From NCBI GenBank assembly GCA_030655955.1, contig JAUSOZ010000271.1:1-32806 (forward strand): a stretch of DNA of 32,806 nucleotides, in the 5' to 3' direction. The position numbers and the translations under genes are program-made. Source of the DNA: Deltaproteobacteria bacterium (GTDB taxonomy: Bacteria > Desulfobacterota > Desulfobaccia > Desulfobaccales > 0-14-0-80-60-11). Below, in pieces: positions 26,549 to 29,967 of the stretch. Position 1 is the stretch's first letter, and each line of letters begins with the position of its first letter. The notes below the pieces were generated by a model that saw only the letters and a program-made list of their open reading frames with translations, ran no database searches and was not told the origin of the DNA.

Positions 26549-26561
26549 GTTATTTCGGCTT

Positions 26562-27404
26562 TCAAGTCCCGCCGGGTTCGCAGGCCGGGTCTATCAGGGG
26601 GGCCGGCGACGGTTCGGCCTGGGAGGCGACATCCTCCCGGGTCTGGCCGGCCGCGAGCTTTTCAGCATAGAACAAGGCCCCTTCGGTGTAGGGGGAACTC
26701 TTGAAGCCGGTGTAGCGGCGCAGGGCCACCCGGTGGAAACCCACCTTGAGCATGAGGGCCAGGAAATCCTTTCCCGGCATGGCCCCGCCGATTCACTGGA
26801 ACCAGTTTTCCACCTTGCCGGCCTGGTCCGGGGGCAGCGCCGCCACCAGGACCATGTCGGCGAGCATCAGCCTGCCGCCGGGTTTCAGGACTCGGTGCGC
26901 CTCGTGCAGAGCCTTCTCCTTATTAAGGGTCAGGTTGAAGACGCCGTTACTGATGACGGCGTCGAAGCTGGCCTCTGGGAAGGGGAGGGCCTCGGCCTCG
27001 CCCACCTGAAACTTGACGTGGGCCAGACCCAGCCGCGCCAGGTTCGCCCGGGCGCGCTCGACCATGGCGGCGGTGACGTCCAGGCCCACCACTTTCCCGC
27101 CGGCCCCCACCAGATGGGCCGCCACCAGGGAGTCCACCCCGGCGCCGCAGCCGATGTCCAGGACGGCGTCCCCGGGGTTAAGGGGTTCCAGGCTGAAGGG
27201 ATTGCCCACGCCGCAGAACGCGGCCAGGACCTCAGGGGGAAAATTTTTCAACACCTCCGGGGGATAGCCTTGAAGTTCCATGCCGGTCTTGCCGGTGGGA
27301 TATTGGAAATTGCCCCCGGCGCCGGCGGCGGCCACCCGGTCGTACTTCGCCTTGATGCCCTGCTGCACCTGCTGAATTTCCGTTTCGGTCATTTCCCTAC
27401 TCAT
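26562..27404 (-). CDS. ArsM-like SAM-dependent methyltransferase, predicted selenoprotein (Sec204)
   Basis: The product is 280 aa if the in-frame TGA (minus strand, 26795-26793) is read as selenocysteine. The start is ATG 27404 (MSREMTETE) behind AGGA. The Rossmann fold shows SAM motif I VLDIGCGAGVDS, then VVGLDVTAAMVERAR, FDAVISNGVFNL and HRVLKPGGRLMLADMV. This is close to arsenite methyltransferase ArsM, though the CC pair seen in many ArsM proteins is absent. After KVENWFQ comes TGA, then IGGAMPGKDFLALM and TGFKSSPYTEGALF, the usual C-terminal part, where relatives carry Cys before (I/V)GGALP. A SECIS-like hairpin follows. Read as a stop, the protein would lose its last 76 residues. Substrate could be arsenite or another soft metal(loid) or thiol. 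Confidence 0.8.
26758..26778 (-). promoter_or_regulatory. Predicted bacterial SECIS element of the methyltransferase gene
   Basis: On the minus strand GCCGGGAAA pairs with TTTCCTGGC (9 bp, one G-U) around a GGA loop. The loop begins 23 nt after the UGA, inside the 16-37 nt window known for bacterial SECIS, and starts with G as required. It lies within the coding sequence, as bacterial SECIS elements do. Confidence 0.7.
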
Positions 27405-27429
27405 GGCATTATCCTGACGCAGCTTTAAT

Positions 27430-27455
27430 GGCCCAGGCTTTCCAGCCTGTGGGCC
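27430..27455. repeat. Palindrome GGCCCAGGCT...AGCCTGTGGGCC
   Basis: A near-perfect hairpin with a short TTCC centre, related to the CACAGGCT-GGA-AAGCCTGTG unit at 17704. Nearby, GTGCGTAAAACTTACCCTGCA (about 27485-27505) looks like a decayed half of the TGTAGGGTGCG element. Confidence 0.55.
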
Positions 27456-27529
27456 GTTAGGCCGCGTCATCCGTGCCCATTATGGTGCGTAAAACTTACC
27501 CTGCATTGCTTATCCGGCAACCCAAGCGG

Positions 27530-28263: not shown

Positions 28264-29604
28264 TTATTCCTCTTCGTCCAGCTCGACCCCGTCACGCTCA
28301 AACTGGGCGTCGCGGGCGGCGTGGCCTGCTTCGATCTCCGCTTCGTTCCAGGGTTCGAAGTCCAGGCAGAGGGACACCAGTTCCCACAGGTACAGGGTCT
28401 CTTTGTAGTTGGTGCCCATGTCGCAGTGCTTGGGGAGGTCTTTCATGATTTGGTCCCGGCAGTTGTGGCACGGGGCGATAACGATCTCGGCGCCGGTGTT
28501 CTTGATCTGGTCGGCCTTCATACTGCCGTAGGCCCAACGTTCTTTATCGTAGGGCATGGCCCAGGCGCCGCCGCCGGCCCCGCAGCACAGGTTGTTCATG
28601 TAATCTTCACACATTTCCCGGTAGAGGCTGGGGTCGATACACTGCTGGGCGACCCAGCGGGACAGCTCGCCGTAGTTGTCCCCGAAGGAAATCTGGGATT
28701 TGCGCACGTAGTTGCACGGGTCGTGAACCGTGTAGGTTTCGTGAAACTTATGCGTATTAAGCTTGATCCTGCCTTCTTTGATGTATTCCGCCAGCAGGTC
28801 AAAGATGCTGACCACTTTGAATTCGTCGTAGACTTCCGGAAACCAATTTTTGAACCCGAACCGGGTTGCAAAGTAGGCATGCCCTCATTCGGGGTACAAA
28901 ATGGTTTTGGCCTTGAGTCGTCGGGCGTTTTCGATGACCCGGCCGACCTGCTCTTTCATGGACTCGTCGTCCCCGGAGAACAGACCCCAGTTGACCCCTT
29001 CCCAGTTGGTGGACGAAACGGTCCAATCTTCCTTGGCGGCGTAGAAGATCTTCCACCAGAACTTCATGTCGTCCGGCTCGCCGAAGGGCTCCTTGGAGTT
29101 GATGGTGACGATGATGTTGGCCCCTTCTTTGTCCACCGGCACATAGAAGCCGGGAGTGGGCTGCTCCTCGTCGTTTTCCATCTCCACGCCCAGTTCCGCC
29201 AGCAGGAACAAAAAGTCGTCCCTGGGGATCCCGAGGTTGTTGCCGCGCTGGAGGTTCATCATGGTGCCCTTGTGGATGGGGCCGGGGACCTTGTCCCGCT
29301 CCCGGGCGGTGCGGCAGGCCCGGAAAGTCCGCATCAGTTGGATACCCATGGGGCACTGGTACTGGCAGCGGCCGCACAGGGTGCAGACCCAGGGCCATTT
29401 GGAATCAATGACCTCCTGTTCCATTCCCAGAACAATGGCCCGGATGGCCTTCCGGGGGTCCCAGCCGGGAACCAGCCCGGTGGCGGGGCAACCGCCGGCA
29501 CAGGTGCCACAGGTATAGCAGCGATCCGCCAATTCGGGCGCGATATTCCCGATCTTGCGGTGCTTCCTGTCCACCTTGATTTCTTTTACGGCCTCTTCTG
29601 GCAT
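28264..29604 (-). CDS. HdrD/TmcB-like Fe-S oxidoreductase with CCG domain, predicted selenoprotein (Sec240)
   Basis: The product is 446 aa from ATG 29604 (MPEEAVKEIKVD) behind GGAGG, reading the in-frame TGA (28887-28885) as selenocysteine. Two [4Fe-4S] motifs open the protein: CYTCGTCAGGCP and CTLCGRCQYQCP. The C-terminal half is of heterodisulfide-reductase CCG type: DPCNY, LCCGAGGG and PCHNC form the second CCG unit. The UGA falls in ILYPE-U-GHAYFATRFG, where relatives have Cys before GHA. The first CCG unit keeps no other Cys, so Sec240 would be its only soft ligand or redox residue. Such proteins pass electrons between membrane or cytosolic carriers and thiol/disulfide or other acceptors. 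No HdrA-, DsrM- or cytochrome-like partner is adjacent. A SECIS-like hairpin follows the UGA and a strong terminator the stop. Confidence 0.85.
28849..28872 (-). promoter_or_regulatory. Predicted bacterial SECIS element of the Fe-S oxidoreductase gene
   Basis: On the minus strand TTTG-C-AACCCG pairs with CGGGTT-CAAA: 10 bp with one bulged C, apical loop GTT. The loop begins 23 nt after the UGA, the same distance as in the methyltransferase gene. G at the first loop position fits the bacterial consensus. Confidence 0.75.
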
Positions 29605-29967
29605 TTTCCCTCCAAGTAAATTGTGGTTAGTATAATCCCAATCGGCGTCCGGCCCGGGTGTGGTTCGCCCTGAGGCAGATCGCCGGATTAAAGACATCAC
29701 TTAATAATATGAGGCAGTTCTTACCTTTGCCCCTATGGTTTGTATATAAAATTTTTGCCAAAAAATAAAGACTTTTTCCTCCCTGCACTTTGATTTTAGA
29801 GGCCGGGGCGCTCATGTCAAGAAGAAAATACTTTTTTTCACAAAAACCCTCCCGGGGGCACAAGCGTGGGGAAATGGGCAGCTTCTTTGGGAGCTTTGAG
29901 GCCCTGCGTCCCAGTGGCGGTTTTTCTCCGTCACGCCCGGTTTTTGTGGTATTTTAAGAGAAAAAAA

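Follow-up and report, generated by a model that had tools for sequence, protein, structure and literature searches.

A minus-strand gene in the window, the 32,806-nucleotide stretch of contig JAUSOZ010000271.1 of a Deltaproteobacteria bacterium that was analyzed as a whole, raises two questions: whether its in-frame UGA is read as selenocysteine (Sec), and what selenium would do in the Fe-S oxidoreductase that it encodes. The frame, opened by the ATG at 29604 and closed by the stop at 28264, comprises 446 residues including residue 240, the length that a sequence-only reading of the locus had given, and the TGA that it had placed at 28887-28885 inside ILYPE-U-GHAYFATRFG matches the sequence exactly. 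The gene encodes a genuine selenoprotein, and we regard the Sec reading as secure. Sec240 is probably the active-site residue of a two-part Fe-S electron-transfer protein of sulfate-reducer-type bacteria.

Table 1. Features of the selenoprotein gene in window coordinates.
Feature	Position	Strand	Basis
Sec-containing HdrD-like (fused HdrC-HdrB) Fe-S oxidoreductase, 446 aa, UGA read as Sec	28264..29604	-	
Probable ribosome-binding site GGAGGG for the ATG at 29604	29608..29613	-	By inspection
HdrC-like ferredoxin domain, two [4Fe-4S]; C29, C32, C35, C39, C74, C77, C80, and C84 invariant	29341..29529	-	
Sec240 codon, in-frame UGA, motif PE-U-GH	28885..28887	-	Conserved in relatives
SECIS-like hairpin with a 10-bp stem, one bulged C, and GUU as the apical loop, 23 nt from UGA to loop	28849..28872	-	RNAfold
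Second CCG unit, invariant C297, C340, C341, C379, and C382, noncubane [4Fe-4S] ligand set	28459..28716	-	

The conservation of the UGA was followed through two locus collections, same-family and wider, which are partly redundant in that they share some genomes. The UGA at codon 240 is common to about 20 genomes of the same family and to dozens of wider Desulfobacterota loci, and each close orthologue spanning the site in the same-family set (22 genomes) has exactly one internal TGA. Across the wide Desulfobacterota loci, nearly all have TGA as codon 240 and 11 have TGC; the latter are two close relatives with the motif PECGHAY and nine more distant Cys forms with the motif PDCGG, including a paralogue in the window's own genome. 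A sample of the phylum gave a strong relative in 91 of 395 genomes, and the top-scoring relatives almost all carried one in-frame TGA. The conservation of the UGA at one codon exceeds chance. The proposal that Sec takes the place of a conserved Cys before Gly-His also held, as the DsrK of the same genome has ECGH, the paralogue DCGG, and rare relatives ECGH; all paralogues and a few relatives carry Cys at the Sec column.

To estimate selection on the two parts of the gene, dN/dS was taken from codon-aligned sequences, which replaced an earlier fixed-offset estimate that had ignored indels. The values were 0.06-0.10 upstream of the UGA and 0.18-0.42 downstream; dN/dS past the UGA exceeds that ahead of it, yet is still below 1, and purifying selection acts on either side of the UGA. 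The sequence-only reading had listed three observations that would speak against Sec, namely conservation ending at the UGA, a Cys codon in the raw reads, and a genome lacking Sec machinery. Conservation extends downstream of the UGA, and a single-read error is unlikely given that the UGA is present in independent genomes.

The Sec machinery was located by a family search of the window's genome. The results showed a tRNA-Sec with anticodon UCA (74.7 bits), SelB (359 bits), SelA (313 bits, truncated at a contig end), and SelD (375 bits). The SelD gene (G000:C210:18178-19098, locus L143) itself has one in-frame TGA, suggesting that selenophosphate synthesis is probably Sec-dependent in its own right. 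Among the matches to FlpD/MvhD (PF02662) in this genome, 5 of 15 have an in-frame TGA (G000 contigs C311, C91, C251, C298, and C312; loci L135, L137, L138, L140, and L141), pointing to a large selenoproteome.

The hairpin described after the UGA, with its stem, single bulge, loop, and spacing, was reproduced by RNAfold. Compared with synonymous-codon shuffles, the 30-nt hairpin region was more stable over 59 distinct UGA sequences (mean z -3.1), and the same comparison gave a mean z of -1.2 in 11 Cys sequences. The hairpin region was weak in the PDCGG-type paralogues (z about -2.0 to 0.1), and both PECGHAY Cys relatives retain the hairpin. The stem is present in two registers with compensatory changes, the pairs changing from CG to TA in 13 and 10 sequences and from GC to AT in 18 and 5. 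In a Syntrophobacteraceae MAG (L108, 6001-7203), the Sec codon is UGC for Cys and a strong hairpin still follows it (z -4.7), as expected from a recent Sec-to-Cys change. Bacterial SECIS elements vary by gene, and general models cover them poorly; therefore, the Rfam search of the window, which gave no SECIS match, was not counted against a SECIS element.

In the window gene alone, the hairpin region ranked no higher than third in strength among 437 scanned windows, so that conservation and not single-sequence stability is the strong evidence. This rank is in keeping with a UGA that is a true stop or that reflects a pseudogene or a sequencing error, leaving a truncated protein of 239 residues, but the UGA occurs at the same codon in many independent genomes with Cys in the homologues, the hairpin is conserved, purifying selection acts downstream, and the Sec machinery is complete, which makes a truncated product highly improbable. 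Decoding of the UGA as Cys or Trp is hardly credible either: the Cys of the paralogues at the UGA column would fit it, whereas a SECIS-like hairpin that is kept after the UGA and mostly absent in the Cys paralogues, together with a genome that has SelB and a tRNA-Sec with a UCA anticodon, argues for Sec.

With the UGA read as Sec, the domain architecture of the product was analyzed. Pfam placed a 4Fe-4S dicluster domain at residues 26-88 and one CCG domain at residues 291-386. Across 47 sequences (L114, whose reading holds a further stop, was left out of the multiple alignment), the eight ferredoxin Cys and the five noncubane Cys of the second CCG unit are invariant, completing the set C-Xn-CC-Xn-CxxC in the second unit. 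The first CCG unit does not have the HdrB-like five-Cys set; residue 240 alone is invariant there, and His242 is present in 46 of the 47 sequences. The claim that the first CCG unit has no other Cys was correct for this protein, in which residues 98 to 296 contain none but position 240, and did not extend to the relatives, which often have a non-invariant Cys232 (32 of 47). The best solved matches of an AlphaFold model built from the 47-sequence alignment (mean pLDDT 88.8, pTM 0.88) were mycobacterial EtfD, HdrB, and HdrC. Therefore, the protein joins HdrC and HdrB in one chain of the HdrD type, and it is probably a soluble electron-transfer subunit.

The best NCBIfam models were HmcF, TmcB, and DsrK, all of which scored far under their cut-offs. 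An identity as HmcF (182.3 bits against a cut-off of 750 for NF045711), TmcB (152.6 bits against 735 for NF045724), or DsrK (129 bits against 400 for NF045796) was rejected, and the true DsrK of the genome lies elsewhere, with a score of 686.7. The protein shares the fused HdrC-HdrB layout with DsrK, TmcB, and HmcF, and the ECGH of the own-genome DsrK falls at the Sec column; however, identity to DsrK is about 25%, and that DsrK has Cys where the window gene has Sec.

The selenoprotein family is not new and has been in the literature since 2006. Fe-S oxidoreductase (GlpC) was described as a selenoprotein family of five members by Zhang et al. 2006, with operons that contain hdrA, frhD, frhG, and frhA (PMC1794560). 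A 2026 review lists an "Fe-S oxidoreductase-like protein" (PTHR43551, motif UGH) with WP_174406253.1 as its reference protein and states that how these selenoproteins interact is still unclear (PMC13188914). The window gene belongs to this catalogued GlpC/UGH family, in which it was placed by motif, lineage, and the operons of its relatives. It shares with the family the UGH motif, a SECIS hairpin directly after the UGA, occurrence in Deltaproteobacteria, and, in many relatives, hdrA, frhG, and frhA as operon partners. HdrD4 of Desulfobacterium autotrophicum HRM2 is similar by its description, namely a soluble selenoprotein of the HdrD type that combines HdrC and HdrB domains (PMC2702500).

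With regard to the gene location, many relatives have HdrA, a protease for hydrogenase maturation, and hydrogenase subunits resembling VhuG and VhuA next to the gene, and others have HdrA with ShyB- and ShyC-like subunits of the NAD(P)H type. The window gene differs from the described family in this respect. In its genus, the gene lies between an aldehyde-dehydrogenase-like gene and, past a flavin-reductase-like gene, a methyltransferase; no donor genes (hdrA, hydrogenase) flank it, and it has left the hydrogenase operon. The methyltransferase (window 26550-27470, minus strand) has in-frame UGAs of its own at 26795-26793 (NWFQ-U-IGGAM) and 26564-26562 (C-terminal GGT-U-KPK), both also present in L057, and its score of 485.6 bits exceeds the cut-off of 460 for the NCBIfam model NF047649, "methyltransferase/UXPK-star double selenoprotein". 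The Cys paralogue of the window's genome (PDCGGAS; G000:C53, locus L002) lies after two FlpD/MvhD-like genes and before a gene that by inspection is 2-hydroxyacyl-CoA dehydratase-like.

To place the selenium within the fold, the protein was compared with mycobacterial EtfD (9ojn) and archaeal HdrB/HdrC (5odc). They have in common the fold and the ligand set of the second CCG unit, whereas the first unit here has only Sec and His, and there is no membrane part. In EtfD, Cys503, 538, 581, and 584 of the first CCG unit ligate a linear [3Fe-4S] cluster, and Cys637, 672, 673, 709, and 712 of the second unit together with His583 ligate a noncubane [4Fe-4S] cluster; in HdrB, the disulfide is cleaved between two noncubane clusters (PMC13083937). 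A profile alignment to EtfD, weak at 46 bits, set U240 opposite C581, H242 opposite H583, and the five second-unit CCG Cys opposite C637, C672, C673, C709, and C712. A two-residue gap falls just before the Sec position, and the C and H still match by identity. The EtfD first-unit ligands C503, C538, and C584 have no conserved counterpart in the Sec protein.

These results change the picture of selenium as the only soft ligand in a first-unit cluster, at a site unlike the noncubane site of classical HdrB/HdrD. Further along the chain, a complete five-Cys noncubane site is present in the second unit, and Sec240 stands two residues before His242, which is aligned with the noncubane-ligand His of EtfD; Sec240 is probably not the sole soft ligand of a first-unit cluster. 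From the EtfD alignment and the missing first-unit ligands, we infer that the first cluster may have been lost, that His242 would reach the second unit's noncubane cluster, and that Sec240 would lie against the same cluster. In the literature, no description was found of a hybrid site in which a selenolate faces one noncubane [4Fe-4S] cluster, and a search for a DsrK noncubane-cluster structure returned nothing directly usable.

Known Sec sites are mostly catalytic, and Sec as a simple ligand is uncommon. This speaks against a different role for Sec240, in which its selenolate would permanently ligate an Fe-S cluster, be it the second unit's noncubane cluster or a small one in the first unit, and would tune the potential for electron transfer but would not react with a substrate. 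Such a role would resemble that of the aligned Cys581 of EtfD, which ligates the linear [3Fe-4S] cluster in a protein that is purely an electron wire (PMC13083937), but the other three first-unit ligands of EtfD are not conserved here, and we consider it rather unlikely.

We lean toward an HdrD-like subunit in which Sec240, beside the noncubane cluster, would cleave a sulfur-sulfur substrate, a proposal whose substrate and catalysis we infer entirely. Electrons would enter via the two [4Fe-4S] clusters of the HdrC-like part; in the relatives, they would presumably come from an HdrA-type flavoprotein together with MvhD and either a hydrogenase or a module of the NAD(P)H type. From the two clusters, the electrons would reach the one noncubane [4Fe-4S] cluster on C297, C340, C341, C379, and C382, and His242 would probably be near this cluster or also ligate it. 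Sec240 would sit on the first-unit loop beside the cluster, at the place of the other cluster of HdrB. A disulfide-, persulfide-, or trisulfide-type substrate could be split so that one half stays on Sec240 as Se-S and the other half on the iron of the noncubane cluster, or the reaction could run in reverse. More tentatively, selenium might replace the second noncubane cluster of HdrB in a hybrid site of an Hdr-type complex, where a disulfide or polysulfide would be split between Se and Fe.

For a family listed since 2006 without a reaction, what is added here is a structural hypothesis that puts Sec240 and His242 opposite Cys581 and His583 of EtfD. If true, it would give selenium a testable role in how sulfate reducers and syntrophs carry out electron transfer of the Hdr type, and it would suggest a reason for the retention of Sec at position 240 across many genomes.
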